This document shows, piece by piece, positions 10,601 to 63,304 of a stretch of DNA of 64,000 nucleotides. The DNA lies in the NCBI GenBank assembly GCA_963402885.1, contig OY727099.1:21161001-21225000 (forward strand), given 5' to 3'. The notes under the pieces are model-generated. The model saw only the letters and a list, made by a program, of their open reading frames with translations. It searched no databases and was not told the DNA's origin. How positions within the stretch are numbered: position 1 is the stretch's first letter; each line of letters begins with the position of its first letter. The position numbers were made by a program, and so were the translations under genes. Source of the stretch: Antedon bifida (taxonomy: Eukaryota; Echinodermata; Crinoidea; Comatulida; Antedonidae).

Positions 10601-10973
10601 ACAAGAGCTTGAGATTTCAATTAATGATTTCCGTTACATTGATGGTACTTTGTTGGGTACTTTCTTGACTAAATCTCTTCAACTGCGTAAATTATACATG
10701 CATACTTGCAAATTATCAGGTGAGAAAATGAATGGAATTATAGCAGCTTATGAAGCAGCTGGAGATAAGTTTGAATTACAAGAGCTTGCTATTTCAATTA
10801 ATGATTTCAGTGACATTGATGGTACTTTACTGGGTGCTTTCTTGAGTAAGTCTCTTCAACTGCGTAAATTATACATGCATACTTGCAAATTATCAGGTGA
10901 GAAAATTAATGGAATTATAGCAGCTTATGAAGCAGCTGGAGATAAGTTTGAATTTGAAGAGCTTTCTATTTAA
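4615..10973 (+). CDS. NLR-A: NACHT-LRR receptor, large exon ending at a premature stop
   Basis: Predicted cytosolic innate-immune sensor of the NACHT-LRR family. The exon starts after TATAG at 4614 in phase 1, matching the start of the paralogous exon in NLR-B. Near residue 78 is a Walker A motif (GEAGIGKTT, 4845-4871), then the Walker B region LLLDGLDEL (about 5094-5120) and the LTSRSE sensor stretch. A helical region follows, then ribonuclease-inhibitor-like LRRs from about 6160. LRRs come as bipartite units of about 59 residues, with a CKLSGEKMN-type half and an ELQELxIxxNDFxxID-type half. From about 7700 the units are nearly identical 177-bp repeats. The frame stops at TAA 10971-10973, where every other unit has TCA. 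No N-terminal death-fold exon was found upstream, so the protein is incomplete at the 5' end. The family call is firm; the ligand is unknown. Confidence 0.9.
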
Positions 10974-12600: not shown

Positions 12601-14395
12601 TTCATTTCATTTCATTTATTTATTCGACCAATACACAGATACAGAACAGAAACAGAGCACAATGGTCAGAGGCAACTAAAGCAAAACAATTACTATAACT
12701 CAAAGAGTCAGTTGCCCCTTAAAAAAATCGAAATACAAAAACTATTGCACCAAGTAAAACAATTGTACAAGCTCGGTACATAAATATACACATTTAAAAG
12801 ATAAAAAGATTAAAAATTGGAAAAACATCCTTTCAATGAGGTAATGTCGGACTTTCGAAAAAAAAAAGCATGTTAAAGAGACCTCAACTGCTGAATTTCT
12901 TAAATCATCAGGAAAAACTGCCTACACACGTGGAAATAAATTGACAAGAGAATTACTCACGGCTGTGGTGCGGGCAAATTGGTGTCTAAACAAAAGTGAG
13001 TCGGAATGCCTTGCATTGACCGAGACACCTTCGACGATACATGAACAGTCAGTTATACCATAGAGACATTTAACAACAAAAGAAATCAGCATGTAATCAC
13101 GCCGGGAGTTCAAAATTAACATACCAAGCCGTCTAAGTCGATCAGTGTATGGTATTTCCCCCTTTTTAACTATGATAATCCGTCTGGTGGCAAACCTCTG
13201 AATATGTTTGTGTTTGGGGCAGCCCATATTCAATTATTGGTAAAATTAAAGATTTATAAAGGCAATTTAAAACAACAGAATTGGCACCTCCTGTAATTCT
13301 GAAGATTAAACCAGCAAATTTGTTAGCTTTTGAAACAACGTAATCTACATGATTATTCCATGACAGTCTGCTGTCAAGAATAACACCAAGATACTTATGC
13401 TCACGTGTTGCATCTAATTTAAGACCATTCATAAAATACATATTTTCATTTTCATAACTTTAGTTTTGCTGGCATTAAAAATCATTTGGTTATTATCAGC
13501 CCATGTATTAAGGTGATCAAGATCATCTTGTAATGCCACTGCATCGCATGCAGAATTAATTGGCTGATAAATCAGGGCATCATCAGCAAAACGAACACAA
13601 TGAGATTTTAACAATAGCGACAATTCATTGACAAAAATGTTAAACAGTAAAGGGCCTAGTACACTTCCCTGGGGATACACCAGATGTAACGGGCAGGCTT
13701 TGAGAGCACGTACCTCCAAACTGAACAGATTGAAATCTATTCGTAAGGAACGAACATATCCAATTCCAAACTGGGCCTTGGATATTGTATTGAGATGACA
13801 ATTTATTAAGAAGGAGGTGGTGGGGTAGTTTATCAAACGCTTTAGACATATCTAGAAAAATAACTGAGGTTGTCGTTGATCCAGAATACACATGCACATG
13901 ATTTTCGTTTAATAAAACCATGTTGGTTAGGTGACATCAGGCAAAGCTTAGTTAAGTGGATATTAAGGGAATTAGAGACATTTTTTTCCATAGATTTGCA
14001 AATTATTGAAGTTAATGCTATGGGCCTATAATTAGTAAAGGAAGACGGATTACCAGATTTTAGAACAGGGACGACAACGGAATGCTTCCAGTCATTAGGT
14101 AACTGCCCTATACTTATAGAACATTTGAAAAGGGAGCAGAGAAGGTAGGCAATTACAGGAGATATCGCTTGCAGGAACCTAGCGGATAAGTTATCTCGGC
14201 CAGGGGACTTATTGGCTGAAAAGGAGTTAATAACTTTAAAAACATCGTGGGGTGTAATATCTATACTTCAAGTGGGGGGAAATCAGTAGAACTGAAAGGA
14301 CAAGGAAGCGCGCTAACAGGTAAAGGACCAGGCAGGTTAAAAACAGAGGTAAAATAGTTCTTAAACTCGTTTGAACTATCAGCAGGTGATTTAAG
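12601..14395 (-). mobile_element. 5'-truncated non-LTR retrotransposon (CR1/Jockey type), decayed
   Basis: On the minus strand the reverse transcriptase can be followed in pieces over several frames. First comes a fingers region (KSPGRDNLS, LPNDWKHSVVVPVLKSGN, NYRPIALTS), then LDMSKAFDKLPH, then PQGSVLGPLLFN and the catalytic FADD motif at about 13575. Thumb and C-terminal parts follow (KYLGVILDSRLSW, IEYG, then a YTDRLRRLGML block). Frameshifts and stops separate the pieces, so it is dead. The 3' end, at the low coordinate, is a short ATGAA-rich tail. Both sides are flanked by the same GATTTTGAATA minisatellite motif. Confidence 0.85.
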
Positions 14396-14470: not shown

Positions 14471-15434
14471 TGTTAGCGGTGATGAGGATGATGAAGAATA
14501 AGGGATGATGGATATTGTGATGATGAATGTGAAAAAGAAAATGAGCATGGTGATGGTGTTGGATATGGTGATGAGTATGTAGATAATGAATGCTTATGAG
14601 GCTGATGATAGATATGGTGAAGATGATGTTGTTGATAAGTAGGTCTATAATGCATACGGATGAGCCTAGAGTAATTCAGCCAAATAACTCCACTAAATTT
14701 AAACATGGTAACTGAATCAATGCATTCATCAACTAACATTGATGCACGGTAAAAGACAAAAATAAACTTTAAATGTGCATGCGGAATCACGTGTATGCAA
14801 TACGTTAGATGATACCTTACGAAGTGAACCAGTTAAAATTCAAACACAAAAGAAAGTGTCCCTTTTGAAGACGGAAGAAAAAAACAGATAGTGGGACTGG
14901 AGCTTAAGTTGGCCATTAGTCGTAGCCATTTTAGTTTTTTGTTTATTTTATGAACGGACCGCGCGTGTGAAAGGTACAGTAGTTTAAAAATAACAATTAT
15001 ACTGCAAATTAATAAAGATTATTAAATATTCGCCATAAAGAATCGGAATATATTGTGGGGAATAGTATTATAAAATTACATAGGGAGATTTGATGATAAG
15101 ACATTAATCGAGTGAAATCCCGATAGCTGAGTTTTATCATGGAGGAAAAAATAAATTAAATTATAAATAAATTATTTATTGTTTCCTCCATGGTTTTATT
15201 AAGTAAGCTGGCAGGAATAACTGTAGGCTAACTGTGTCCTGTTAGGACCGAGATGTCTGCCCATGTTGCAAGCCGTAATGTCTTCTTTCTTGGGCCGAAA
15301 TGGCCCACTCTGTCACGGCAGTTAGTTTCAAAAGATGTTTAAATTAAATAATGTATTAATACTTATTAGGATGATATTTATTTGAATAAACGCCTCTCCA
15401 ATAAAACATCACTTTGAATAATAATCAATTGGAG
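14471..15434. other. Intergenic or intronic sequence
   Basis: Degenerate GATGA repeats extend to about 14640; after that I see no exon. In particular I found no Rab39 first exon with a GDSxVGKS P-loop here. The segment 15285-15362 is the reverse complement of a repeat also present at 4376-4460. Confidence 0.4.
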
Positions 15435-15826
15435 TATTGCTCGTTTTTGACATTTCAAATCGTAAAAGTTTCGAGCATCTACAGGAATGGTTCCTAGAGG
15501 CTCAAGAAAATGTAATTTACCCAAGAAGCGTTGTGTACATGATAATCGGTCACAAAAGTGATTTAAAAGAATTACGGCAAGTAGCTGTGGAAGAAGGCGA
15601 GAAGTTTGCGAAAGCTTACGGAATGAAGTATATAGAAACATCCGCAAAAGCATGTATTAACGTAGAGGCTGCGTTTTCGGTGATGGCTAAAGAAATTTAC
15701 GTGAAACTTCAAGAAGGAGAAGTGGAGATGCATGAGGGATGGGATGGCATTAAAGGTGGTTTCTCAACTCCGAGAGAAACTCTGCGACTAGAAGAGCCAC
15801 CACAAAGACAACGGATATGTTGTTGA
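15435..15826 (+). CDS. Rab39-like small GTPase, C-terminal exon
   Basis: Encodes the second half of a Rab GTPase involved in vesicle traffic. Visible are LLVFDISNRKSFEHLQEW, the G4 guanine-specificity motif in Rab39 style (GHKSD), AYGMKYIETSAK (G5), INVEAAF, the Rab39-typical EGWDGIKGGF near the C-terminus, and a terminal Cys-Cys for geranylgeranylation before TGA. The P-loop and switch regions are absent, so at least one 5' exon is missing. The best acceptor is the AG at 15433-15434, giving phase 1. Its pyrimidine tract is poor, and a stop lies just upstream in frame (15422-15424). In human RAB39B, as I recall it, the intron lies earlier, after codon 71. So this is either a lineage-specific intron position or a 5'-truncated copy; the intact frame favours a functional exon. 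Confidence 0.75.
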
Positions 15827-20130: not shown

Positions 20131-20523
20131 CGATATTAGTAATTTATAAAAACGGTACTGTGTTTAAAAAAGAAACATGTATACTGATTTGTGGTTTTCA
20201 AAATATTTTTGAACAGATAACGTGGTCATTTTGAAGATTCCCTACCCTGTTGGCATCACTTCACTATCTACAGTATTTAACTCTTTAGTTGTATAATACT
20301 CTACCTCTGGGTATAATATTTGTACATTAGTGGTATACCGACTATGTCCAGTTGTAGTACAAGTATTGTTAAGTGTGTATGTGTTACATCCCTCTATGCT
20401 GCTTTAGGTGTAACAATTAGTCCATAGACAGAAATGTGTTGTCTATGTACGATCCTCATTTAAATAATTCATATTCTTTATTTGAATAATCCTCACACCT
20501 GTAATAACACTAATATATCCATG

Positions 20524-20684
20524 CTAAAACTTTGTCTACACTATCAATCTTTATGTGACAAAAAATGTGCCCATATATGGACATGATGATGTCATATCAC
20601 TACCATATGTGGCCATATCACTACCATGTTTGGGCACATCACACTTTTTTGTCAAACTAGTTTGATAGAGTAGACAGAGCTTAA
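20524..20684. mobile_element. MITE family 1, copy C
   Basis: Inverted ends TTTGTCTACACTATCAAT and TTTGATAGAGTAGACAGAGC, with TTAA at the right edge. The internal ATATCACTACCAT motif is duplicated. It lies about 280 bp beyond the proposed last exon of the TPP1-like gene. Confidence 0.8.
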
Positions 20685-20862
20685 CAAATGCATCATAAAT
20701 GAGTTAACATAGAACAACCTCTGATTGAAATTCATAAACAGCAGTTGTATTATTTTGGTTGTTCTTTTTAATGACCTACATTTTCATGACAAATCAAGAA
20801 TTTAAACAAAAATGTTGGCAATGTCTATGGGCCTGTCTCAATACTACTAAGTAAAAAAAATG

Positions 20863-20868
20863 TTTATT
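20863..20868 (-). promoter_or_regulatory. ACD: Candidate polyadenylation signal of the TPP1-like gene
   Basis: AATAAA on the minus strand, about 95 bp after the proposed TAG stop. Confidence 0.45.
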
Positions 20869-20963
20869 TTATGATACAGTAGTTAAAACTATACTATACA
20901 ATATTCATGAAGTATAACATGTTTAAAACATTTTACTGGTACCCAGTCCTACATTTGATATTA

Positions 20964-21113
20964 CTATAAGCCACTTTGTAGCATTTTAGAAAGGAACGAT
21001 AAATAACTCCTCTCTATTTTATTATTGTTTAATGAGAATCGATGAATTTGTGAATAAATGTCTTCTGAAATGATAAATGCACTTATTTTGTCAATATCTT
21101 GTATCTCCATACG
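20964..21113 (-). CDS. ACD: Candidate terminal exon of the TPP1-like gene
   Basis: After an AACAG acceptor (phase 0, as exon 11 requires) the frame runs 49 codons to TAG at 20966-20964. It encodes RMEIQDIDKISAF and a leucine-rich end, SYLSFLSKMLQSGL. A short helical C-terminus would fit the TIN2-binding end of TPP1, but the similarity is too weak to claim. An AATAAA follows at 20868-20863. The pyrimidine tract is poor, so another terminal exon could be used instead. Confidence 0.4.
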   Translation of the reverse strand, partial: RMEIQDIDKISAFIISEDIYSQIHRFSLNNNKIERSYLSFLSKMLQSGL

Positions 21114-24100
21114 CTGTTTACTGATGATATTATTATTAGGGACTTTACGAAACACGACAGGAATCCACAGGACGGTGCTCATGAATAATTTATTCAAGAG
21201 CAACAAAGGTGGCAGAGCTTAGGGTGAAATTCCGTCGGCGTAAGTTTTTGAGGACGATAAAGTTGCCATTTTCCCGTTTACGGAGAACGACTAGAAATAA
21301 TGTACATATACTGTAACCTTACAGTTCAAATTACACTTAAACGTGGAAATTTCAAAACTCTAAATAATATTTGAACTTCTTATTTAATTGTTCAACGAAA
21401 TAACATTTTTATTGGGTTAAAATGGCTGTATTAAAAGCAATACATTCTGCACGGCGTTTGAATGCAAGGCTCCTAGCTAGGAAGGCTAGGCCTATGCTGT
21501 TCCTCCTCGCGCAAGGGTGCGTAACTAATAAAACGGCTATGTTGACTGTATTGATTTTATGCTCTAGCGAACACAGGATATTCGTCTTCCTCCTGTAACC
21601 GTCATGTTTCGTCCCAATTAGCGAGCTTTTGATTTGCGAAGATTAACAACCAAACTATGTTATTGTAAGTTCATTGTGCGCATGCTGAAATATTGGGACG
21701 TCTGTACTTTATCCTCACCTCTATGGACTTAGTGGGCTATTCTTGGCGTGTATGACCAAAATAACAACATGGTTTCCAGCCGACATTATTTGACCTAACC
21801 TAGGCTGGTCGTTGATCATTGGGCCCCGCAAATCAAAATCTCCCTAATAGTAGTGATGGTAGATCGCTCTAAATGTTATTTATCAGATCTTGAGATACTC
21901 AATACACCAGAGAAACAAGTCTTGCGAGGATTCGTCTTGCTGCTTGTGCTAAGTAATAAACAAAAGTAAGTTGATTTGATTACAGTAAACAATAGTAGGA
22001 ATAACAGTAAATAATTAGTATAATAATTACTATACCTAAAAAATGCCCAATGGCCTTCAACGCACATTGTCATCCAAACTGATTCGTGTACTGTATGTAT
22101 ATGCTAATTCACTTTATGAGTGGGGTTTGCCGAGTGGTTAAGACAGTGGAACCATACTCCATAGCATTATGACAAGAGGCACAATCGATCCATGGTTCTA
22201 ATGGTAGAATGAGTCTTCTCAGATAAGGATTATAAACCGTAGGTCCAGTGTACACATAATGCTCATGTGCACTTTAAGGAACCTACTTTTGTACATCTTT
22301 CGAGACAAGTAGGAGGTTACCAGAGCGTACCTCCGTACACAACCACTGTCGGGGACAGACCAAATAGCGCAGAACCGATGCGGTAGCCCTTAGGAAAGAA
22401 GCATGTACTTGAAGTACGTAACATTTAAGTCCACAATACATTAAGACGACATTATTTGTGGAATGCGCTTTATACAGTATATACAATTAACATTATATAC
22501 AGTAGTTATGAATATGATAAAATATTATTTTCCTACCTTTTGTGAAGCATGGTTGGTTTTAGGCTCTTTGGCAACATGATTGGTTTTGTGCTTTTTAAGA
22601 TTAGACTGTTCAGTTTGTTTTCTTGAAGTTGCAGCGATTTGATTGGACGAATGTGGTATATCATTCCCATCATTCACTTTACTGGTGCTTGAAATAGATA
22701 AATTAGTCTTTCGTTTTTTAGCTGGTTGTGAGCATGAAATGTCATCAGCTTTTTCTAAATGTTCTAATTTTTTTCTTTTTGCGGTAGATTGTGAATCTTG
22801 TAATCGAGCGCAATTTGTAACATTGTTCATTCTATCCAAACTTTGTTCACAATTTGTTTTCCGAGACCCGCTTTGGGTTTCAGTTTTCTGATTTTGATCC
22901 TCTGAACATTTTTCCGTGATTACCGCAGCCATTTCAAGATTTGTAGATTGGTTACGATTTGATTTGTTCATCGTGGGCGTATCTTGTATCAATATCATGC
23001 TATCCTGCGTCCAATCTTCCAACAAAGTATGTTTCACTTGGTTGCTCTTTAAACATTCTTCGTGGTTTTTGTTGGTACTTGAAACATCTTGCTGTGAAAC
23101 GGTCGAACAAGTTCTCACACAATCTGGTAAATTGCTGTCAAACGTGAAAGATGCTGAACCAAAGACGTTAGATTCTGAAATCAGAACAATTTACATTTTG
23201 TTGACACTGAAATTTGGTTTGTTTTGAAGATGGTGTTTTGGATTTCGAACATTGATGTTGGGGCGTAAATGTTTTGTTTTGGTTGTTAAGAATTGTCTGC
23301 GAGAAATCAGGCTTATTATTTAATAGTAGAGAGTTTTCCTATTCCTGACTACATGTTCTTGACTATTTGGATCTTAATCATTTTGGTTAGGCTATTTTAG
23401 TTAAGTGATTTAAACCTTAAGCCTGTAGTTTTTACTGTAGCTGCTACGCTGAATAGTGTTGCGGTTGTTTGCACACACAGCTGTGCTATCTTGTGCGTGT
23501 TTTAATTGAATTTGTGTTTTCAGACTCTACCAAAGAATAAAGTACGGTTAAAGTAACTACCACAAGTTTGTGTATCAATAGGGAGGTTTCGCAATGCTAC
23601 GAATATGAAAACGGATACGTCACACACACATATTCGTTTTTATAAGCTAGTACAAATTTGTTTCGCATGGTAACGAAATATTGAGGGCACCGTCCAAAAT
23701 ATGAATTTAGTAAGTAATTTGAACGAAGCAGGTATGTGTTGCTTGGCTGCTTAGGCCTAGCGCAACATCAAAGCGAGTGAGGACTTTCAAAACTGCCATT
23801 TATCAAAATTGACCTGGCAGTTTAGTAAATTACTTTCAATAAATCTATAATTATATTATAATCATGAATCTTTCCTGATTCAAATGAAAAATGTGCAAAA
23901 TATATCAAAAACTATACTTGTTTTGTAGTTACGAATATGACTGGTGATATTCGTCAACACGAATAAGCTTTACAAATATGAATTGGGGATCAGCTCAAAA
24001 GTTTCACAAATGTGTAACATATATGTTTTTCGTATTCGTAAGGTTACGAAACCTCCCTATTGTCTGGATTAGACAGGCTTTACTGAAGTAAATGTAGTAG

Positions 24101-27100
24101 GTTACATTACAACCACATTTTTATATGAAAATTATTTCAAATTTTTTTTTTTAAATCCAAGCTTCACTTTATCATATAAAACATCTCACTAAAGAGTTGT
24201 TGAAAATTGAAAAAGATTAGCTTTATACCTTTTTGACTTGGGTTGAGTGAGGAATCACTGGCACTTATATCGAATGAGTCGCCGGCCTCAGAGTCGCACT
24301 CGATGATGGAGTCCGAGCGAATCAATTCAGAAGATTCATCAGCATATTCTTCATCATCCTCAATCAACTCAAGCTTTGAATAAAATATAAAGATGTAGAT
24401 TTTTAATAATCTGTCTCAGAAATAAAATATTTATTCTACTAGGACTAAAACTACAGTATTGTATCATATACTCGGCATACGATGCAATACACCTACATAC
24501 AGTATACAATGATTGTAGTTTATTATTACTTGCAACAATTCATTGATCGGAGAGCTGCATATATTTTATTTCAGAGAATGTCAGTCTGCTCTCTATCCTT
24601 GTTACCCAAAAGCTAAATTTTTAACAAACTATTACCTGCAAGTCTTCCTTGTAAATTATTACAATATTTTCCAGTTTTAAACTATCATCTGCCAATTCAT
24701 GCTGTATATCATCTGCCAATTCATGCTGCATATAATCTGCCAATTCATGCTGTATATTGTCTGCCAATTCATGTGGTGTATCAACTGCCACTTCATGTAG
24801 TGTATCGTCTGCCAATTCATGTGGTGTATCGTCTGCCAATTCATGTGGTGTATCGTCTGCCAATTCATGTGGTGCATCATCTGCCAATTCATGTGTTGTA
24901 TCATCTGCCAATTCATGTTGCATATCGTCTGCCAATTCTGGTGTATCGTCTGCCAATTCATGTTGTATATCTTCTGCCAATTCATGTTGTGTATCATCTG
25001 ATGTTTTATGTCTGTTATCTGCCGAACAACGTTGAATATTATATGCTTTTTTATCAGTTATCTCAAGAAGTCTGCGTTTGTTTCTATATTTTCTTGTAGA
25101 AAAATATATTTTACTCGCTTGTGAGGCCATACTCGATGATTGGTTACTTGTATCACAGTCTTCTTCTAAACCTTCAATAAAAATTAAGTGATAGGATAAA
25201 AATATTTAAATGAATGTAATATATACTGTATTTGAATCAACTTAATTTTAATTATTTTAACAATAGATGTTTCTAATAATTCAACTTCTTTCTAACAAAT
25301 CTGTCCTCTATTTCTTTCTTTTTTTTTACCTTTCCATTCTTTGGTTCCATTTTCATTTCGATTTTCTACCACTTCTCCCAAACTGGAAGCCTCCAGTTCA
25401 TTTAGTTCTACTACTTCAAATGAATTTAGTCCTTTTCTTGTTTTAGTATTGTTTGTGGTATTTTCTTCATTTAAGTTTCTCTGTAAAATATTATTATTGT
25501 CTATTCTTTTACTTCCAAATTCTTCTTCACTTTCTTCTTCAACCACTTCTCCCTCAGAAGACAGAAGTTCAAGCTTGATAAAAACCACTCAATAAATAAA
25601 AGGTCATGGTAAGGTCAAATACACCAACCTGGCTGGCAAGTCTGAACTTGCCTTTGAAACAAATGCTATTGGCCTCATTGAATTATGCCAATCAGATGTG
25701 CTTTAATGAACTTCTTAGTAATTACATTGTTTAGCTATCAAGGGTCAAGGTCAGTTGGGTAAACTATTGTTCATAGCATGGACTAATATACCTCCATGCT
25801 CATACAGTAATATCTATATTATTATTATAAACATGACCAGAAAGAAGCAAAAGTACATTAGATTTACTCTCTCTCACTTGGGTTTCTTCATCATGTATAA
25901 GATACATGTTTGCTATTGGACAGTATTCTACTATTAGGTCTAACTATATAAAAACATTATAAAATTGTACACAAAATTAAAATTTACCTGTACGTTTCTT
26001 AGTAATACAAGTTCTGGGTTTTCTAGTTTTCCACATCCTAAATCGTCTTGAATTTCTTCTTCAACCAGTTCTCCCTCAGATGATAGAAGTTCAAGCTTGA
26101 TAAAAACATAAAATAAGTAAAAGACCATGTTATAATGAATACACCATTCTGATTAGCAAGTTTAAACTCTCTCACTTTGGGACACCCCTGTTCATGAAAC
26201 AAATAATGAGCAATATACGTTTCAACCAATGATTTTATATAGCCGAAGGCTAGATAACAAACTGCAATGTTATCGCAGTTCAAAAATTGATTCTCCATGG
26301 AGAGGGAACCAACAAGACTGCAATCGACCAATCAGATATACCCTACGCAGTACGCACTGCTAAACGCCTGTGTTGAGCCTATCTGCGTAAGAACAATACG
26401 CAACGCAGCGTGTTAAGCGTATAAACGCGAATGCATTCTATATGATCCTCGTATACAAAAAATGGTAGATTACCAAGAACGATTTCAATATATTTAATTT
26501 CATAAAAACTTCACTGTTCTTTGACAAGAATATGTGTTTATGTGGTCTTAATGTATTATATTAGATTATTATTTTTTATAATAAATAATATTTTTGAACA
26601 CATTTACGGCTGCCATCTTGTTGGTTCCCCTCCTGTTGGAATCACTTTTCAGTCTGGAGTACACACTCTAGCCTTCGGCTTATTACATCTCTCTTGTTTT
26701 AACACAAAGGCCAACCACTATCCAGGAGATACCCCTATTAAGGTGACAGGTTTTTGTTTGGTTCTAAAGTTGTCCCCTTAATAGAGTTACTTTATCTAAC
26801 ATATTTCTACATTGTTCTTAATTTTGTATGCTGTTCTATTAAACCATAAAGCCTGTTTTCCAGTCGACGTTGAGTTGCGGTGCATCACGTTGAATAAACT
26901 GGATCCAACGATTTTCCAGGAAAACGGTGCAAAATCTGTAAATATTAGTAGTCTGGCTCGATCATCGTTATTGTTATTTATTTTAAACTTGACAATTTGA
27001 AAATTCAACGCAACTTGCCTTAACGTTATGTCAACTGGAAAAAAGGCTTAAGAAGCATGCTTTATAGAAGATTGTACAAAAAAAGTAACATTTACGTTTT

Positions 27101-30100
27101 TTAGTAGTACAATTTCTGGGTTTTCTAGTTTTCTAATTCCCAATTCTTCAACTTCTTCTTCCAGTAATTCTTCCTCAGAGGAGGACAAAAGCTCAAGCTT
27201 GATAAAAACATTAAGAAAAGGTCAGAAAGTAGTTTGCTTTGCTTTGCTTGGCAAGCATCATTTATTTAATACATAGTTTTTACGTTATTTTTACATTAGG
27301 CCTTAATACTACTGTACTAGACTGTTCATTAACAATCAGATCGAAGGGAACTCAGAGTTTGAAATGAAAAACTTAAGCTCTGTCTACACTATCAAACTTG
27401 ATGTGACAAAACAAATGTGATGTGCCCATATATGGACATGAAGATGTCATAACACTACCATATTTGGCCATACCACTACCATATTTGGCCATACCACTAC
27501 CATATTTGGCCATAACCACTGACCATATTGGGCACATCACATTTTTGTCACATAAAGTCTGATAAGACAGAGCTTTACACATTGTTTAACATTAAATGTA
27601 AAAAATAGTACAGTATTAATGTGCTTTTTACACACTGCAAAGCAAAAAAAAAAGGAAGAAGAAAATCCAAGAAGAAGGTTTAGATTATGTCTGCCCCACA
27701 AACACTTACTGTGCCATCATTAAGCTCCATCTACACTACCAAACTTTATGTGAAAAAAATATGATGTGCCCATATATGGAAACAATGACGTCATATCACT
27801 ACCATATTTGGGCACATCACACTTTTTTTGTCAAACTAGTTTGATAGTGCTGGATGGATTGGTATTGGTATGGATTCCACCATCTAACCAATCCCAAAAA
27901 GTTGGGAAGAGGTGGTGAGACACAAAGATAGAGAATAAAATGATTTACCTCTAAATCGTCTTTGTAAATAATCAGCCCACCTGTTTCTGCTACGTTTATA
28001 GTACCAACGTTTTCCATGGTATTGTTAGATTCTTGCGTTTCATACTCGGAGTTCATTTCCATACGAGAATCATTCGCAAAATTGCATAAGTTGGATAAGT
28101 TGTAAATACTGTCTTCAGAATTATTTCCTACAAACTTCACACGTCTAAATACAAATGAGATTTGTTATTACAAATGACGCAAAACAATTTAGCTATTAAA
28201 GATGAAACTAACGTTGGACCCAACAAGACATAAAGCTCTGTCTACACTATCAAACTTTATGTGACAAAAAAATGTGATGTGCACATATATTGACATGATG
28301 ATGTCATACCACTACCATAATTGGCCATATCATTACCATATTTGGGCACATCACATTCATAGGGATTGCAGAAAATGTTTGTTTCCACTTAAGAATGACA
28401 GTTCTCTTACCTTTTGTCTAATATGTAATTCTCATCATCGACATTCATTTGAGAGAATTGTTCAGTACTGAGTAAGCTAAATTCCATCACTTTGAGGTAG
28501 AATTCTGTCTTTTTTTCCTGAAGAAGATAAAAAGCTAAATATACTGCAAGTGTAAACAATGTACAGTGGAGTCGAATGGCCAAGCAGTTTGGCAGTGACG
28601 CCGTAAAATATATTTAAAAAATCAGCTCTCCTCATCAAATTTAGTTCTGGTGGTAGAACACATTTTCTTGGATATAAGTACTTAAAACTGGAGCTCCAGT
28701 GTACACATTTAGATTGTGTGCATTTTAAAGAACCCAGTGCATCTTTTGGAAGACAGAGGGTTGACCTGCATTCCAGTGGCATAATACAGGAGGAAAGGCC
28801 GATGGCTTAGCACTCCTAAGGAGCCCTCAAACGCTGGGTAGTTGCATTTGAGCTGTCAATCTGGGTTCCCTTAACCTATGAGGCCCCTGGGTTTAGAAAA
28901 TGAATGCTCATAGCCACTGCTACATTTAGGATTGGTAGTGCTCATTAAGCCTCATCACAGTGCAAAGTTATACTGTACATACCTCATGGTAATTAGTTCC
29001 AATTTCGTATTTGGTAAGAGTAATACGTGATTTGGCAAGGTCTGCGAATGTACATCCTGAAATACTGTCTTGATCACTGAAAATATAATGACATTATTGA
29101 AAAAGAAATGACATTTATTGACAAATCAATGACATTATTGACAATGACATTTAGTGACAAAGCAATGACATTATTGACAAATAAATGACATTATTGACAA
29201 AGCAATAATAATAATATATTCACTTTACTCCAAAAAGTATAAATAAATACATATTAACAAAGAAATGACATTATTGACAAAGTAATAACATTTTTACACT
29301 GCATTATAGGAGAAGAAAAAGAGAATTAAAAGTATAAATAACTTTTAATTTCAATTTTTCTATTCACAGCCAACAGAGATATGAAACCTGCACTAACAGG
29401 CTGAGAGAAAACAAAGCAATTTCATTAAATTTAGATACAGATATGGATAAATTATCATAAAATATATAAATACCATTAACATCCAAAGTATTAAGATTAG
29501 GGTGAAAATGGTAGGCCTTTAGTAGGCTACACAGCCAGTGGCCTAAGGCAGAGGCCTGAGGCTCTTTTTTCTTACTTTGTTACAACTACAAAATGGCCTA
29601 TTCAAAGTCTGATTTTATTAAACTTCATTTTCATGTTTTTGGACAATACATCTTTAATTAAAATAAAAGGTAGTAATTACCAATCATAATTGTTTACACA
29701 ATTTTTGGTGAAATATGCATCAATATTCTGATACTTATCGGTCAAAATTCCATGTCCAAAGTAAATATCTTCAATTGGAGGATCTAAAATCTAAAGAAAA
29801 AGATTACTTCTCTAATGAAACATTGTATTTGTTCAGTATTTATTAGTATTCTACTTTTACTTCTGTGTTTCATTAATTTTTCAATATTATCAAAAGTCAG
29901 TGTTATTTTCAATGTTAAGTGGCTGTGCTTATAAATAATCACTATTCTATATTTATTATTATCATCATTATTGTAAATAAACACTGTAAATAATCACTGT
30001 ATATCTTATAATTATTATTGTTGTAAAAATCACTATACTACATGTTATTATGGTTATCATTTTTATGAAAAAAATAAATTATTATTTTGTTATGATTGAT

Positions 30101-30254
30101 TGAATAAAGTTCACTGAGACAAAAACAAAATTTCAAATCATACAACCTCCACAGAAACAATTTCCGCCATCAAATATTGAGTTGTATCAAAGCCAGCATG
30201 GCTCAACCAGTAAATCCAGGGGAAACCAACTGGGTTATTCCTTGCAACTTCCAT
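20964..30254 (-). CDS. ACD: TPP1-like shelterin protein (12 coding exons, span)
   Basis: Predicted telomere protein TPP1 (ACD), which in vertebrates bridges POT1 to TIN2 and recruits telomerase through its OB-fold. Coding exons, high to low coordinate: 30254-30147, 29790-29681, 29076-28983, 28517-28411, 28144-27949, 27197-27096, 26095-25988, 25573-25330, 25171-24636, 24373-24229, 23174-22537 and, tentatively, 21113-20964. Every junction is GT-AG and every phase agrees (0, 2, 0, 2, 0, 0, 0, 1, 0, 1, 0), giving about 845 residues. Human ACD is shorter (about 460-540). The identification rests on exons 1-4, especially EFYLKVMEFSLLSTEQ, which matches the vertebrate TPP1 OB-fold pattern as I recall it. 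The ATG at 30254 starts just before the fold; the frame is open upstream to the acceptor at 30270, so an extra N-terminal exon is possible. The rest is acidic and fast-evolving, as expected for TPP1. Confidence 0.75.
21114..22120. other. Intron 11 of the TPP1-like gene, with a CpG-richer part
   Basis: Between proposed exons 11 and 12. Around 21230-21660 the sequence is less AT-rich, with several CpGs and a 58-codon + strand open frame (from ATG at 21422) of no recognisable family. It could be a second promoter region. Nothing else was seen. Confidence 0.3.
22121..22390 (+). mobile_element. tRNA-derived SINE of a second family, copy 1
   Basis: Starts with a Leu/Ser-type A box (TTGCCGAGTGGTTAAGACAG) and has a weak B box (GGTTCTAATGGTAGAATG). 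It is followed by TCCAGTGTACACATAATG, then a GTGCACTTTAAGGAACC block and an ACATCTTTCGAGAC block. The last blocks recur at 28690-28770. It lies in intron 11 of the TPP1-like gene. Confidence 0.6.
22537..24373 (-). CDS. ACD: TPP1-like exons 10 and 11
   Basis: Exon 10 (24373-24229) starts LELIEDDEEYADE after an AAG acceptor, echoing exons 6-8, and ends in phase 1. Exon 11 (23174-22537) restores the frame (Glu split) and encodes 212 residues of low complexity rich in Ser, Asn, Gln and Lys. It has basic clusters that look like nuclear localisation signals (TAKRKKLEH, PAKKRKTN). It ends at AAAG followed by GTAGGA, phase 0. The intron between them carries a 477-bp TA-flanked inverted-repeat element. 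Confidence 0.65.
23581..24057. mobile_element. 477-bp TA-flanked inverted-repeat element
   Basis: Ends read GGGAGGTTTCGCAATGCTAC and, at the other side, the complement of GGGAGGTTTCGTAACCTTAC. Both continue into TACGAATA-type blocks, about 35 bp of imperfect inverted repeat in all. TA dinucleotides flank both ends, suggesting a TA target as in Tc1/mariner-like elements. No transposase frame. It lies in the intron between exons 10 and 11 of the TPP1-like gene. Confidence 0.75.
24636..25171 (-). CDS. ACD: TPP1-like exon 9 with an 8-residue tandem repeat
   Basis: Starts in phase 1 (Gly split), has a basic stretch (KYRNKRRLLE), then about 13 copies of the octapeptide HELADDTP or variants (HELADDIQ, HELADNIQ, HEVAVDTP), and ends LKLENIVIIYKEDLQ at the donor. 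The repeat is a 24-bp minisatellite at 24690-24990. It is strongly acidic and probably disordered or helical. The same 24-bp periodicity leaves several other frames and the opposite strand open; these are artefacts. Confidence 0.75.
25330..27197 (-). CDS. ACD: Three paralogous acidic exons 6, 7 and 8 of the TPP1-like gene
   Basis: Exons 27197-27096, 26095-25988 and 25573-25330 all begin directly after an AAG acceptor with LELLSS, then a glutamate-rich run (for example EGEVVEEESEEE). Exons 6 and 7 also share KLENPE(I/L)VLL near their ends. Introns before them share the ending TTTTATCAAG. This is clear tandem exon duplication. All are phase 0 at the start, so copies can be added or skipped without changing frame. 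Exon 8 is longer (81 codons, ending in phase 1). The repeated LELLSSE core could be a binding motif; that is inference. Confidence 0.7.
26847..27051. mobile_element. MITE family 3, copy A
   Basis: Ends AAAGCCTGTTTTCCAGTCGA and, inverted, TCAACTGGAAAAAAGGCTTA. It is related to the better preserved copy at 56244-56450. It sits in the intron between exons 6 and 7 of the TPP1-like gene. Confidence 0.7.
27373..27577. mobile_element. MITE family 1, copy D
   Basis: In the intron between exons 5 and 6 of the TPP1-like gene. It has the same termini, but the centre is expanded by three tandem copies of an ACCATATTTGGCCAT motif, making it longer than its relatives. Confidence 0.8.
27720..27850. mobile_element. 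MITE family 1, copy E (right end damaged)
   Basis: TTAA then GCTCCATCTACACTACCAAA at the left; the right part ends after AGTTTGATAGTGC without the final GTAGACAGAGC. It lies about 100 bp downstream of exon 5 of the TPP1-like gene. Confidence 0.75.
27949..28144 (-). CDS. ACD: TPP1-like exon 5
   Basis: Follows the OB-fold in phase 2 (Arg split across the junction) and begins RVKFVGNNSED. It is serine/asparagine-rich and ends IIYKDDLE at the donor. That ending is repeated at the end of exon 9 (IIYKEDLQ), suggesting that an exon pair was duplicated. By position it may correspond to the POT1-binding linker of TPP1, but no diagnostic motif is visible. Confidence 0.65.
28231..28358. mobile_element. 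MITE family 1, copy F (right end missing)
   Basis: Left terminus AAGCTCTGTCTACACTATCA is intact; the copy breaks off after GGGCACATCACATT. It sits in the intron between exons 4 and 5 of the TPP1-like gene. Confidence 0.75.
28411..30254 (-). CDS. ACD: TPP1-like OB-fold exons 1-4
   Basis: Together about 140 residues. Exon 1 has a GFPWIYWL segment, comparable to the PWI..L start of the TPP1 OB-fold, and ends YLMAEIVSVE. Exon 2 has GILTDKYQNIDAYFTKNCV, a strand-turn-strand like the 'VSDGTHSVRCLVT' part of human TPP1. Exon 3 has CTFADLAKSRITLTKYEIG. Exon 4 has EFYLKVMEFSLLSTEQFSQ, the strongest match. Phases 0, 2, 0, 2 link them exactly. The intron between exons 3 and 4 contains a SINE; the one between exons 2 and 3 contains a minisatellite. 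In vertebrates this domain contacts telomerase; whether that holds here is inference. Confidence 0.78.
28562..28770 (+). mobile_element. tRNA-derived SINE of a second family, copy 2
   Basis: A-box-like GAATGGCCAAGCAGTTTGG, B-box-like AGTTCTGGTGGTAGAAC, then CTCCAGTGTACACATT, GTGTGCATTTTAAAGAACCC and GCATCTTTTGGAAGACAG, matching copy 1 in order. The 5' end lies just beyond the acceptor of TPP1-like exon 4. Similar unclassified sequence continues to about 28950. Confidence 0.6.
29088..29290. repeat. Intronic minisatellite GACATTATTGACAAA
   Basis: About nine degenerate units of 16-24 bp built on GACATTATTGACAAA, starting about 12 bp from the exon 3 acceptor of the TPP1-like gene on its intronic side. 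Confidence 0.75.
29590..29658. mobile_element. MITE family 2, one-ended fragment
   Basis: Carries the block GGCCTATTCAAAGTCTGAT and the right terminus GACAATACATCTTTAA only. It is in the intron between exons 2 and 3 of the TPP1-like gene. Confidence 0.7.
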
Positions 30255-30807
30255 TGCCAAAGTGCTAAACTATAAATATGATTGCTTATTTTATTTTTTT
30301 GCTGATATTAAAATATTGATGCGATATGAATACATTTCAAACTCTGCAAAATAAAAATTTAATTTAAAATTTTTAATTTATAATTAACAATACAAGGCAT
30401 GATTTATTATCATAATTATTAGTCTTATAAGTCTTAATGATAGGGTTAAGTAAGGGGCATAGTACAGTAGTAGGGCCTAGCTAGCTATCTATCTATGCCT
30501 GAGTTACTCCTACTATATAGCTAGGATAGTCAGGCCATGCCACGTGTTCTGGGCCTGCAACTAGCCTAGTTTAGTTCCTACCTAGCCTAGGCCTAGCCCT
30601 CCTAGGTTTATTTTTAGGTTAATTGATTAGGCCTACAACTAATTATAGGATGCCTAGGCTAGAACGTTTATATAGTTCAATTGTGATTAAAATATTAACA
30701 TAAACAAATGTATGTATGTAAACTAAAAGTAAAACGGTAACAAAATTGCATAATTATTCAGTTCTTGTTTTCATCGTCACGCTTTGCTGATTTTAGATAA
30801 AATTTAC

Positions 30808-30845
30808 CGCGCGCTCTCTTCCCCTCTCGCCGCCCTCTACAAATA
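30808..30845 (-). promoter_or_regulatory. ACD: GC-rich island: probable 5' UTR exon end and promoter of the TPP1-like gene
   Basis: This is one of the few GC-rich spots in the region. On the minus strand it reads GAGGGCGGCGAGAGGGGAAG, then AGAGCGCGCG followed by GTAAAT, a good donor. The intron would run from 30807 to the acceptor at 30270, upstream of the ATG at 30254. No ATG lies in the visible part of the leader. A MITE family 2 copy begins about 55 bp further upstream. Confidence 0.4.
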
Positions 30846-30899
30846 AAAATTACGGTGGCCTGTAAGTGTCACGGCAACTTCCAATAATATCATGGCAAT

Positions 30900-31243
30900 T
30901 TAAAGATGTATTGTCCCCCAAAAACATGAAAAGTAAAGATTAATAAAATCAGATTTTGAATAGATTATTTGTAGTTTTAATAAAGTTAATCACTTCAGAT
31001 GAAAAATAACCAGAAAAAAATATATGTTTTCACTTATAAAATGACAAGTTAAATTCAACCAAAAACCCATTGGCTGGCAGACAATTTGACCATTTTCTGT
31101 TTTAAAATTACATTTTTTTCAGGTAAATACATTTTTTCGATCCAGTTTTTTGTCAAAGTGGATAACTATTGTTACATTAAAATGGCATATTCAACAAATA
31201 TTGTGTTAATAATTATTTGTTCAAGGGGACAATACATCTTTAA
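30900..31243. mobile_element. MITE family 2, copy C
   Basis: About 344 bp, flanked by TTAA on both sides, with ends AAAGATGTATTGTCCCCCA and GGGGACAATACATCTTTAA. It lies next to the GC-rich presumed 5' end of the TPP1-like gene. Confidence 0.8.
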
Positions 31244-31820
31244 ATAAAAAAAAGCCACGGCATTTTTTTTTAAGTCACATTAATAAAAAAAAACCTCCCA
31301 CGGCAATTTTAAATAAAAAATCACGGCAAATTTAAAAAAAATAGCAATTTAATCAAAATACCACGGCAACTTAAAAAATGAATTGTTCACCATCTTTGAA
31401 TTGCGGTGCGGTCCAAGAAACAAGCAAGAATACACATAGCCATAGGACTATCTGATCAACCCCGATATCTCAGTACAAGAAATCTGTTTGTGGAAAATAA
31501 CGTTCCATCTTTGTATGAATTCTTAAGGCTCAACATTAATTTATATTTTTCTTTACAGAAGTATTAAATGCAAAAATAGAATCTGAATTTGTATAACATG
31601 AATATTTATTTTTTGAGTCCAAAATGTATTTTAAGCGGAGAAAGGCCCTGTCAACAAATAATTCTTGGTCCACTCTCCATAACGGTTGTCATATAATGCT
31701 TTTGTATTTCTTTTTTTTCTTATTATCTTATTGTATAGAATATGTTCATATGCACAGTTTGTCTAAAATAAAGTTTAACATTTAATTGAATATTGTATAT
31801 TTGCTATTGGTATTTTAAAA
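31244..31820. other. Upstream flank of the TPP1-like gene
   Basis: Contains four or five spaced copies of CACGGCAA(A/C/T)TT in A-rich DNA (31255-31375; another near 30867). No exon was recognised. The large duplicated array starts just after it. Confidence 0.35.
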
Positions 31821-32247
31821 TTATTATTATTATTATTAGGGTGCACTACCGATATGTTTTTGCCGCTGTTGCAAAAGCGTCATTCAAAAGATTATTAGTA
31901 CATAGCAAAAAATAGGCCTATCATGGATTTCAACATGTTTGAATATCAAAAACTGTAGCTAATAAAGAGCTGCATATGAAATTGTGGTGGTGGTTGATTT
32001 ACTGCCAACTAAATAAGTCCGGGCCTATTAGGCCTAGTTTGATAAATTAATATTAGTTTACTATTTTCAACCAACACGCTTACTTTAGATTATGATTCAT
32101 CACTGTTTTGAGTCATCACTGTTTTGGGTAATCACTGTTTTGAGTGCCGCCGTCCTAAAGGTAAACTATCTCTCAATCGATAATGAAATCATCAAACAAA
32201 ATAAAAGAGAATATTATCAATCAGAAAGCAAACACCATTGTATTCAG

Positions 32248-32288
32248 ATAGACCATTTTGCTTGTCGTATCTGCTTGTACATTCAAAG
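32248..32288 (+). other. Exon-like 41-bp core, copy 1 of 12
   Basis: Preceded by TGTATTCAG and followed by GTAAAG. The best frame would encode ILLVVSACTFK, hydrophobic like a signal peptide, but here it begins with TAG. An upstream donor-like site (CCTAAAG then GTAAAC, 32158) and a downstream acceptor-like site (ATTTCAG, 32648) are also present. Coding status is unproven. Confidence 0.4.
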
Positions 32289-35183
32289 GTAAAGTTTCGA
32301 AAATGATAAGGTGCACGAGTTGTGGGGGTGAGAGTCAAGGTGTCATTGATTGAATCGAACTGCAAAGTACTGAGTGGGGGTGGTTTCGAACATAATATTT
32401 TGTTATATTTTCTGACAAGCAACAAGTTTGCTAGAGATTTTTTTTGTTTAATTGGCTACTTCTATGTAATATAATGTAATTTGATGAAAAGAAGCAACCG
32501 AAAAGAAAAAAATAGTCCTATTAGATTTGATTAAACCTTTGATATAAATTTCAATAGAGAAATAATTTCCATGTTTCAATAAATTAAGCTGAAGCGGTTA
32601 TTGTAGATATAAAAACATAATGTATTATTTCATTTATCTTTATTTCAGACTTCATTTCCATAGAAAACAGTAAAAGACAATACTCTTTTAATATAAACAT
32701 TTGAAAATTACATTAATAAAAGTAGTGGTTAACGGGTAAGTTTAAAGTGATTTGATTGAATACGTGGTGCATCAAGTGGATAATGGTTCTGAAAGTAAAT
32801 TTCATTGTTAATTTTCTAACATGTTGAGATGTCGAAAGCCATATTAACATCACATAATTTATATTGACGATGAATAGAAAAATAACACATTATAATTGAA
32901 ACATATTTATATCTCATAGTTCAGAAAAGGTATGGATAACAGAGAGACAGCTTTGCAAGACTGAACTGAATATATCCTGAATGTTAATTAACATGTTTCA
33001 ATAAAAAAACTGTATATAAAGTAAACGTATGCGGTGGCGGTTGGCTTATGGCCTCTGTAAAAGAAAATCACTATGAATGCTGATAGTTTGAAAAGAATCA
33101 ATTATGCTTGTCATATCTGCTTGTAAATTCAAAGGTAAGTTTTGAATATTATGATTAGATGCACGGAACGAATTGTGGGTGTGTGTCAAAGTGACATTGA
33201 TTGACCAATCAATGATGTGCAAAGTACCGAGCGCGAGATGGTTTTAAATAGAGCAATACTTTCTTTAATAATTTTGACACATGTTTGTGTGATGGATTTG
33301 AAGAATCTCGATCTTTTTGGATGAATTGCCTACAGTACATCTATGTATTGTTATTTAATTTGTGTGAATCGTATAATTGTTTATGTCTAAATATAACCAT
33401 ATACATAATCTTCAAGGGTCTATAAGGAAGACCTATAAAATCATAAAAAAAGAATTGCCCAATTTTTTTGTCTAATGGCCTAAAATTGAAAATCTTATTG
33501 TCTGACAGGAACAACATATCAATATAGACATATGATATATTGCTTATTGGATTTAATGACAAACACCAAATAACTGATAAAGAGAAATAATCGAAAGAAA
33601 AAAATACATCTTTTTGGTATACATTTCAATGGAGAAATAAGTACCATGTTTCAAATAATAAAGCTGAGGCGGTTGTCGTAGTTGTAGAAACATAACGAAT
33701 TCATTTAATTTCTATTTTTCTTTATTTCATTTCCATAAAAACAGTACAAGACAATAATCTTTATAAAAATTAATTCTTATCTCATGTTTTTCGAGCGTTT
33801 TCCGTTCTACCGAATTACTAATTCGTTAAAACGAATTAGTAATCCGTTCAAACGGATTAGTATTTTCTTGTTTGTTGTTCGTGGGTACATCCATATTGAT
33901 ATACTGGTACCCACAATTTTCTTTTTGTTCAGATTGTTCTGCCTTCATTTCATTTGGATTGTCTCACATAATAATATTTGAAAAGAAATTAAACTAATGC
34001 ACTAATGTTGGTGTTCGTATCCCGAGAAACACAAAATGTGAATTGTTGAAATCATTATGTTTTGTTATGGTTTGATTGGCTTTAATTCTAAGTCCGGTTA
34101 GTAATGTTATTTTATCTAATACATTGTTTGTTTTGCCTACGTATATTTATTAAGATTTCGCAACGACTGTATTGTATTATTGTACAATTATTTTTATTTA
34201 AATTGATTTCACAAAAATAAATGAATTAGTCGAAAACAATATTTGTATCCTATTATTTCTGTTTACTGTTCACGCATATATCGCAACATGATTACAAATT
34301 TGTCGTGTTTCAATTGGATACATAAATATACAAGATAAAGAAAATCTCATCGATCAGAAAACACCATTGTATTCAATTTTGCTTGTCATATCTGCTAATT
34401 GTATTTTCAAACGTAAAGTGTCAAAGATGACACGGTGCACGGGAACCATTTGGGGACGGAGGTCAAATTGACATTGTGACAAGTTGACATGAAATGGAAA
34501 TGCTAATTTGGACATCCTATCATGTATTTGTTTTGGTCAATTGCTCTCCTTGAACACCATGTCCTAGCGGAACAGAATAATTGATCAGAAAGAATAACGG
34601 AAAAACGATTCGATAACAATAAATACACACTTGCACCTTATTTGGTTTTAGTTTGTGATTCAAACGATTTTATTTGTTACAAATATCGTAAAATTAACGT
34701 TAACTCTTGGTAACTCTGACTACTTTATTAATGACCCAAAGTTTTATCTTCTTTATGATATTTGACAAGTACCATGAAAACTTAAGTACTTACTGTAATA
34801 TTTATGTTTTCTTCTTGTTTTTTGATTGCATTTATTTATTGAATTTTTAATTGGCATTTTATGACTTTCATTATCATGGTGCACTACCGATATGTTTGTG
34901 CCGCTGTTGCAGAAGAGACATTCCAAATAAATTTAATGTAATGTGGTGGTTGTTGACTTACTGCAAAAATAAATAAGTAGGCCTAGTAGGCATGGTTTTA
35001 TAAATTAATTTAGTAATATTTACTCTTTTAACCAACACGCTTAGTTTAGGTCGTTTAATTCAGCACTGTTTTGAGTGCCGCCGTCCCAACCAAAGGTAAA
35101 ATATCTCTCAATTCGATAATGAAATCATCACACAAAATAAAAGAGAATATTATCAATCAGAAAGCAAACACCATTGTATTCAG

Positions 35184-35224
35184 ATGGCCCATTTTGCTTG
35201 TAATATCTGCTTGTATATTCAAAG
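35184..35224 (+). other. Exon-like 41-bp core, copy 4 of 12 (best preserved)
   Basis: TATTCAG precedes and GTAAAG follows. One frame reads WPILLVISACIFK and ends in phase 1; another starts with ATG. An acceptor-like TTTCAG at 35769 is followed in frame by DFISMEKRE and a stop. The upstream donor-like end differs by 4 nt between copies, so a conserved frame across three exons is unlikely. It may be a non-coding RNA exon or a relic. Confidence 0.4.
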
Positions 35225-38186
35225 GTAAAGTTTCGAAAAAGATAAGGTGCACGAGAGTCAAGGTGACATTGTTCGTTTGATAATTTACTGTAAAGATTTC
35301 GAACATAATATTTTTTTAATTACATTTTTTGACAATCAACAAGTTTGTGAGAGATTTGTTTTAATGAATTGACTACTTCTATGTAGTGTAATGTAATTTG
35401 TTGTTAATCGGATTATTGCTTAGGTCTAAATATAAACATATTAGGTCCTACTATTAGCGTCTATAACGAAGACCTAATATAAAAAAGAGTTTCACTATCA
35501 TTATTATGACCTAAATTTTGAACATTGACATGAACAGGATATCAATATAGGCCTATCATTTACTGATTGTTAGGTTTAATGACAAACACCAAATAACTCA
35601 TGAAGAGAAGCAACCGAAAGGAAAATATAAAGTCATATTAGATTAACATCTTTGATATAAATTTCAATGGATAAATAAGTACCATGTTTTCAATAAATTA
35701 AGCTGAGGCGGTTATTGTAGATGTAAAATCATAATTGTATTAATTTCATTTCATTTCTCTTTCTTTCAGACTTCATTTCCATGGAGAAAAGAGAATAGAG
35801 ACAATAAAGACTTATAATAATAATCTTAAAAAACTAATTCTCATTTTATGATCGATATAATCAATTAATGCTAGTTTATTAAACAATATTACAAGATAGA
35901 CAAATATATTATTTTAAAATAGTTATTTATAAAATATAATAAATGACATTAGGTGGTTAATATTTATCTTGATATTAACGTTTTGCTGAGTAGTTCGATT
36001 CCAGAACGACACTCATTCAAATGTAAAGTGTAAATAAACACACACAATAAAAAAAGAATATTATCAGAAAACATACACCATTGTATTCATATGGCCCATT
36101 TTGCTTGCCTTATCTTCTTGTACATTCGAATGTAAAGGTTTGAAAATGATAAGGTGCACGAGAACGAATTGTGGGTGAGAGTCAAGGTGACATTGATGAA
36201 ACGTGGTGCAAAGCACTAAGGGAGGAGAGTTCCTTACACTGAGGCATTTATTTTCCTTCGTTGTAATTTTTCTGCAACCAACAACAAGTTTTTGAGAGAC
36301 ACCAAATAACAGATGAAGAGAAACAATCGCAATGAAAAATTAGGTTAAACATCTTTGATATAAATTTCAATTGAGAAATAATTTTCATGTTTAAATAAAT
36401 TAAGCTGAGATGTTTAGGCCTAAACTAAGTTATAAAAACAGAATGTATTCATTTCATTTCTCTTTATTTTGGATTTCATTTACATAGAAAACAGTAATAG
36501 ACAATACTCTTTCTAAAACTAATTTTCAAAAATATTATTTCTATTTAATTGTCATGCTTAGTTTAGCTCATTAAAATTGCCTGTATTGTCACACAACAAT
36601 TTTATAGTGACTGTCTATCAATGATGGAATGTATCAAATGAAATAAAAACACACAATAATACAGAACGCTACCTTTTCGGAAAAAAAAGCATTTTACAAT
36701 ATAGCGCATACAGAGAGTCCAGTTGATTGTCACTTACATAATTAAAAGAAGAACTAATGTAGCTGCAGCCTACTTACGGTAACATGTAGGCCTATCTAAA
36801 ATGATTCATTCACACAATAAACTGAACACCATCTTACCGATGATAACAAATATAAATGTTACCATAAAATTAAACGTAACATATCTATTTCTTTCTTAAT
36901 TTCACGATTTTCGAATGACACCCTTTCAAAAGTAACGTGTAAAAGAGATAATATGTAAGAGAATATTAATAATCAGAAAGCAAACACCATTGTGTTCAGA
37001 TGGCTCATTTTGCTTGTAATATCTGCTTGTATATTAACAAGTTAAGTACCAAAAATGATAAGGTGCACGGAAACGATTTTGGAGATGGGGGTCAAAGTGA
37101 CATTGATCGAATAACGAATGGTTCGAAAATTGTCTAAATTTCAGAAAAGCGTTAAAGATGTCGAATATAATAAAATTGACCTAACATAATTATTGTGTGG
37201 AGGGAAAACGCCTTCTTTAAAACGTCTCTAAAAAATGAAGTTGCTTTTTTCATGTTTTAGTTACACCGTTATTTTTACTTTACTTGTAAAAGAATATGTA
37301 ATAAATAGTAATATTTCTGATTAATAAAGCTTAGTTTAGTGCGTATTCGTTAAAATAGCTTTTTATAATCACATCACCATTTCAGAGTTAAGTTAATCCA
37401 CAAAGAGATGTACATAATAGTTATTAATCAGAAAGCTTACACCGCCACTGAATTTATTGCTGTTAAAAAATGATGCCCTTTATGTGAGCATCGTTAACAG
37501 GATGTACTATTTTTGCTTAGTTTAGTGTTTTGTTAAAATTACTTGAATAGTATATGATTTTAGAGTTGAGTAGAGTTCTAAATCAGAAAACATACCCTAT
37601 TTCAAATTTCGAAAATGAAGCTGATCGTGAACGAATTTTCACGTATTCTGAATTCATTTCATTTGAATTGGCTCAAATAGTCGTATTTGGTGTCCTGATG
37701 TAACCAATATGTTGTATATTTGTATACCGAAAAACACAGAAGTTAAATTGTTAAAATTATTATTTTTTGTTTATGGTTTGACTGCCTTTAGTTTTAATCC
37801 GAGAATATAGTTAAAGTTATAAAGTAAAAATAAAGTTTTTTTTATCTAATAATTGTTTGTTTTGCCTAATATATATATTATATAGGCCTATCATGGATTT
37901 CAACATGTTTCAATAACAAAAACTGTAGCTAATAAAGAGCTGACATAAAATTGTGGTGGTAATGTGGTGGTGGTTGACTTACTGCAAAATCAAATAAGTA
38001 GGCCTAGTAGGCATGGTTTGATAAATTTATATTAATATTTACTCTTTTTAACCAACTAGCTTTGTTTTGGTCGTTTGATTCAGCCTTGTTTGCGAGTGCC
38101 GCCGTCCCAACCAAATCGATAATGAAATCATCACACAAAATAATAGAGAATATTATCAATTAGAATGCAAACACCATTGTATTCAG

Positions 38187-38227
38187 ATGGCCCATTTTGC
38201 GTGTCGTATATTCTTGTACATTCAAAG
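38187..38227 (+). other. Exon-like 41-bp core, copy 7 of 12
   Basis: Block 2 partner of copy 1. TATTCAG and GTAAAG are kept; the hydrophobic frame reads WPILRVVYSCTFK. Confidence 0.4.
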
Positions 38228-41200: not shown

Positions 41201-41549
41201 GACAAGAATATATGCTGGATTTCAACATGTTTCAATAACAAAAACTGTAGCTAGTAAAGAGCTGCATATGAAATTGTGGTGGTAATGTGGTGGTGGTTGA
41301 CTTACTGCAAACTAAATAAGTCCGGACCTATTAGGCCTAAGTTTTTGATACATTATTATTAGTAATATACTTACTATTTTCAACCAACACGCTTAGTATA
41401 GATTATGAGTCATCACTGTTTTGGGTCATCGCTGTTTGCGAGTGCCGCCATCCTAAAGGTAAACTATCTCTCAAATCGATAATAAACATCACATCACACA
41501 AAATAAAAGAGAATATTATCAATCAGAAAGCAAACACCATTGTATTCAG

Positions 41550-45035: not shown

Positions 45036-45056
45036 ACCGTAAACACACATAGCAAA

Positions 45057-63273: not shown

Positions 63274-63304
<31 letters not shown>

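Follow-up and report, generated by a model that had tools for sequence, protein, structure and literature searches.

On the minus strand of the window (by which we mean the whole stretch of DNA analysed, 64 kb in length), 11 exons running from 30254 down to 22537 join into an open frame of 796 codons with no stop, where all 10 of the 10 junctions are GT-AG and the phases match throughout. The frame starts at the ATG at 30254 in exon 1 (30147..30254), which encodes the N-terminus of an OB-fold (aa 1-36) and whose start lies near the position of Met87 of human TPP1-S. The OB-fold continues through exon 2 (29681..29790, aa 37-73) and exon 3 (28983..29076, aa 73-104) and ends in exon 4 (28411..28517, aa 105-140), which carries the motif EFYLKVMEFSLLSTEQ at 28505-28458 and the equivalents of human L212 and E215. 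Exon 5 (27949..28144, aa 140-205) lies behind the OB-fold, at the expected place of the POT1-binding domain. It is followed by an acidic linker encoded by exon 6 (27096..27197, with LELLSSSEEELLEEE...), exon 7 (25988..26095), exon 8 (25330..25573), exon 9 (24636..25171, aa 357-535, containing an HELADDTP repeat) and exon 10 (24229..24373, with LELIEDDEEYADESSE...), among which exons 6 and 7, both of phase 0-0, are duplicates of each other and the 5' part of exon 8 is a third copy. The frame closes with exon 11 (22537..23174, aa 584-796), the product of which is rich in Ser and Lys and has KKRK runs resembling nuclear-localisation signals.

A candidate exon 12 (20964..21113, minus strand) can also be joined in phase. 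The sequence-only reading of this DNA had proposed twelve exons joined in consistent phases; exons 1-11 stand, with their GT-AG borders, matching phases and 796 open codons, whereas exon 12 is in phase but unproven. Ranked with approximate splice-site weights against the 581 GT and 607 AG sites of the region, six of the 11 donors score above the 97th percentile, while the donor of exon 1 is weak (67th percentile). The acceptors of exons 2-11 fall between the 76th and the 99.8th percentile, that of exon 12 is mediocre (75th percentile), and a rival acceptor at 21064, which would yield a short C-terminus different from that of exon 12, reaches the 91st percentile. An AATAAA lies at 20868, about 96 bases past the stop of exon 12, and is not significant by itself, the strand holding 111 of them in the window.

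A MITE-like palindromic element, with GGGCACATCACA ends and inner 21-bp repeats, is present at 20500-20680, 27390-27565, 27735-27850 and 28235-28360, three of these copies being within introns 4 and 5 of the gene. Two stretches, at 22109-22420 (in intron 11, provided that exon 12 is real) and at 28570-28890 (in intron 3), look SINE-like by eye and share the word TTTAA[AG]GAACC.

The window also has two long open frames of the NACHT-LRR (NLR) type on the plus strand, at 4572-10970 and 47758-54456, the first ~2 kb of which match Pfam NACHT with E-values of 8.5e-21 and 9e-20 and the later parts of which are tandemly repeated, in units of 177 bp (91% matches) and 171 bp (84% matches). With codon usage trained on these two genes and approximate splice weights, we scanned positions 20500-31000 for the best chain of exons. 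The best chain on the minus strand has a score of 100.7, compared with 20.5 for the opposite strand, with 8.8 and 5.0 for the neighbouring 31-41.5 kb stretch and with 30 dinucleotide shuffles, which average 11.7 (sd 3.9) and do not exceed 21.5. The chain reproduces exactly the borders of exons 3, 4, 5, 7 and 8 and one border each of exons 6, 9 and 10. It does not include exons 1, 2, 11 and 12, it begins at a different ATG (30927), and its tiny terminal exon is taken for noise.

In each of the 12 exons the in-frame codon score exceeds those of the other five frames, which partly reflects openness because stops in the other frames are penalised. The in-frame score itself is negative for exon 1 (-1.1 bits), exon 11 (-13.1 bits) and exon 12 (-3.6 bits), and the GC content by codon position is similar in the joined frame to that of the NLR genes, with exon 11 being unlike the remaining exons. 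Exon 11 is supported by its length, not by its codon usage: based on the local stop frequency, the probability that 213 codons stay open is 4.8e-8 to 3.5e-7 per start, and the stop-free runs within 31000-43500 reach 98 codons at most.

The family of the gene is assigned by the OB-fold. The joined exons 1-4 (the first 145 residues) match the Pfam profile of TPP1/ACD, PF10341, with 33.2 bits (E 5.5e-8), above the curated cut-off of 26.5 bits, the match spanning profile positions 60-145 of 158; the 844-residue version, in which exon 12 is read from its Met, still has 28.5 bits (E 1.5e-6). The earlier claim that the first four exons encode an OB-fold with the TPP1 signature is thus borne out, with EFYLKVMEFSLLSTEQ in exon 4 and the profile placing the fold in TPP1/ACD. 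It is noted that the parts score little: exon 2 alone has 13.1 bits, exons 2 and 3 together 15.5 bits and exons 3 and 4 together 16.7 bits, the exons in the shuffled order 4-2-3 have 17.9 bits, and exons 1, 3 and 4 singly have no match up to E 10. Because the part scores are small and the whole in the right order has 33.2 bits, the match is colinear and spread over the exons, and since the score needs several exons in order, the splicing of exons 1-4, of which the chain model retrieves just half, is also supported.

The only other Pfam match of the OB-fold at E ≤ 1 is that to TEBP_beta (PF07404), with 14.6 bits (E 0.027), below its cut-off of 26.6 bits. It can therefore be asked whether the OB-fold should be placed in a different telomeric OB family, for example of the TEBP-beta type, for which it also counts that with exons 2 and 3 alone TEBP_beta is slightly ahead of TPP1 (16.1 versus 15.5 bits). 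Over the whole OB-fold, however, TPP1 is ahead by 18.6 bits and is the only one of the two to pass its cut-off. Moreover, the OB-folds of TPP1 and TEBP-beta are aligned together as relatives in a figure of PMC4936895, according to its legend, so that a weak second match of this kind is to be expected. We regard the assignment to another family as extremely unlikely and the assignment to TPP1 is kept below.

Pairwise comparison points mainly to exon 4. With human TPP1-S as the tblastn query (a sequence that agrees fully with PDB 2i46_A over the OB part and with 7qxa_O over the rest), the top match in the window is exon 4, with 12 of 16 residues and E 0.12, which would not be significant on its own; the next match has E 6.8. 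The local alignment of the OB-fold with its human counterpart has a score of 58, which was reached by none of 2000 shuffles (highest 54). A phmmer search of PDB with the 145-residue OB-fold gave nothing up to E 10, and with its last 92 residues it gave no TPP1 chain, the matches being three designed knot proteins with E 2-3.6. Because phmmer retrieves no TPP1 chain, the pairwise similarity is marginal beyond exon 4, and outside this exon the likeness to TPP1 is visible to the profile only.

Where human TPP1 has EFYLQVDRFSLLPTEQ, the protein here has EFYLKVMEFSLLSTEQ, and L212 and E215 of the TEL patch are common to both. Besides E169 and E215, the human TEL patch is taken by us to comprise D166, E168, E171, R180, L183 and L212. 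The equivalents of L212 and E215 are retained in FSLLSTEQ and are the sole TEL-patch positions within the reliably aligned stretch. In one global alignment, where the loop is unreliably aligned, five of the eight TEL-patch residues are identical (D166, R180, L183, L212 and E215), and the other three are changed, E168 conservatively to D, E169 to Q and E171 to S. According to PMC4359370, E215 of human TPP1 directly contacts K78 of TERT, and the E169K change strongly reduces stimulation.

Behind the OB-fold, residues 141-583 (443 residues) contain 9.9% D and 16.5% E, that is, 26% D+E, with a net charge of -83, by contrast with the Ser/Pro-rich human linker (20% S and 19% P, 39% together, net +4 in the 140 residues compared). 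Exon 6, exon 7 and the beginning of exon 8 are copies of one exon, with a DNA identity of 73-78% and a likeness that extends into the intron flanks. Exon 9 contains a 24-bp tandem repeat (24683..25000, minus strand) of 13 HELADDTP-like units, one of them a whole codon shorter. The sequence-only reading had described the region after the OB-fold as much longer than in vertebrates and made of repeats, and so it proves, with the exon copies, the 24-bp array and a protein of at least 796 residues, compared with 458 residues for human TPP1 from Met87 and, according to PMC3032778, 487 for zebrafish TPP1, which is far shorter than the protein here.

For pairs of copies, each compared over 27-33 codons, dN/dS is 0.14/0.55 (ratio 0.26) for exons 6 and 7 and 0.28/0.62 (ratio 0.45) for 6 and 8, but the pair of exons 7 and 8, with dN 0.30 and dS 0.23, has a ratio above 1; the constraint on the duplicated exons is thus at most partial. 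In the 24-bp repeat, 11 of the 34 changes in the 12 full units are synonymous, compared with 18% expected, which is a weak sign. If the gene were a decayed copy of TPP1, the expansion of the acidic region by repeats, the weak donor of exon 1 and the lack of purifying selection between exons 7 and 8 would find an explanation. Such a pseudogene would not, however, readily keep 796 stop-free codons and GT-AG borders at all 10 joined introns, nor would the only indel in the repeat be likely to be a whole codon or the ratio between exons 6 and 7 to be 0.26, and we consider it very unlikely that the gene is decayed.

The linker has probably grown through tandem duplication of a single exon together with slippage of the 24-bp unit, and would be a disordered spacer the length of which is little constrained. 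A more specific role can be imagined for it. A run of LEL(L/I) followed by Ser and acidic residues, which resembles a SUMO-interacting or phospho-acidic docking site, occurs four times in the linker (aa 206, 240, 276 and 536), each time at the start of an exon. This number is equalled in 13 of 1000 shuffles, and the occurrences are not independent, because three of them stem from the same duplicated exon. Exons 6 and 7, being of phase 0-0, are skippable without frameshift. On this basis the linker might be a multivalent docking array (SUMO-interacting or phospho-acidic) with its valency tuned by skipping of exons 6 and 7, regulating telomerase or CST, a notion to which we give little credence. 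If it were true, the lineage would regulate telomerase or CST at telomeres through exon copy number.

The other partner-binding regions of TPP1 are unrecognisable here by comparison with the human segments. According to PMC8262337, the human POT1-binding domain has a helix ending at L279/L281, and the TIN2-binding region, 496-527, comprises D496, F500, Y502, Y504, P507, L520, L524 and W527. When the human POT1- and TIN2-binding segments were compared with the expected places in the protein here, the observed scores were reached by 1742, 1631 and 1418 of 2000 shuffles, and the score for the whole regions behind the OB-folds was reached in 854 of 2000. Exon 5 has no detectable match to the human POT1-binding domain, and profile searches with exon 5 alone and exon 12 alone gave only unrelated matches below the cut-off. 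The strict TIN2-binding pattern F.[YFW].[YFW]..P, searched in six frames, occurs three times in the window and not at all on the gene's strand within the gene; a looser pattern has three minus-strand matches in the gene (25981, 25210 and 28686), all of them intronic. Divergence of the two binding segments could account for these negatives, as could a last exon located elsewhere. A likeness between the Y..F...ML spacing of exon 12 and human L524..W527...FL was dropped, the alignment being no better than shuffles, and the single match of exons 11 and 12 to PDB (E 0.27) is ascribed to chance.

With no TPP1 signature found in exons 5-12, alignments behind the OB-fold at the level of shuffles and the codon usage of exon 11 poor, the OB-fold gene might be thought to end early, after about exon 5, exons 6-11 then being another gene or untranslated or alternative transcripts. 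This would leave it to coincidence that the phases match across all the joined exons and that the chain model, which is blind to TPP1, spans exons 3-10 in a single chain, and we consider an early end improbable. We thus conclude with high confidence that the gene is an animal TPP1 (ACD), probably of an invertebrate, with an OB-fold recognised by profile, a long acidic linker built of repeats and a Ser/Lys-rich end. Within this known family it is ordinary, apart mainly from its long acidic linker.

TPP1 recruits telomerase to the ends of chromosomes. By analogy with the family, the OB-fold would dock telomerase (TERT) through the TEL patch, the diverged segment behind the OB-fold would heterodimerise with POT1 and the C-terminus would tie the protein to TIN2, with the result that telomerase is recruited and the chromosome end protected. 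Of this proposed mechanism, the sequence supports the OB-fold part only.

As in human TPP1/ACD (PDB 2I46 and 7QXA chain O), the OB-fold here is N-terminal and starts close to where the short isoform does. Related OB-folds, combined with different partner domains, are present in fission yeast Tpz1 and ciliate TEBP-beta. A working TEL patch is described for Tpz1 in PMC4936895, and the order given for zebrafish TPP1 in PMC3032778 (an OB-fold, then the POT1-binding RD, then a TIN2-binding domain at the C-terminus) is the order expected here.

TPP1 diverges quickly, and every distant sequence that is securely assigned is therefore of use in telling which of its regions are fixed. In the present one the end of the OB-fold that contacts telomerase (FSLL.TEQ) is kept while the region behind the OB-fold is without detectable human likeness, which is in line with the inference that docking of telomerase may be the most conserved task of TPP1. 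The gene is also a natural experiment on the length and acidity that are tolerated in the tether linking telomerase recruitment to the remaining shelterin. TPP1 is an old animal protein, and TPP1 outside vertebrates is reportedly already in print, in a paper by Myler on metazoan shelterin evolution (in Genes Dev, 2021); because this paper exists, the presence of TPP1 in an invertebrate is probably no new finding in itself. Among the literature matches listed, no title or opening of an abstract describes an invertebrate shelterin TPP1. The novelty is a further TPP1 with an expanded linker in a known family, and the view of the shelterin/telomerase system is unchanged by the finding.

Finally, we note other features of the window. 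Downstream of the TPP1 gene the nearest recognised gene, convergent with it, is part of a small GTPase of the Ras/Rab type at 15425-15823 on the plus strand (Pfam Ras, E 3.3e-23). A reverse-transcriptase fragment at 13845-14267 (minus strand) matches Pfam RVT_1 with 23.5 bits, below the cut-off of 29.6, and an open frame at 45018-45647 (plus strand) resembles a death-effector domain by eye, with no Pfam match at 0.01. The Rfam scan of the window gave one tRNA and nothing else. A satellite with units of 66-67 bp forms long arrays at 56905-61672, the arms of which look inverted by eye. Near it lie frames that are LINE-like by eye, at 58377-58829 (minus strand) and 61761-64000 (plus strand), the sole Pfam match in their support being to an endonuclease, below cut-off, at 63407-64000.
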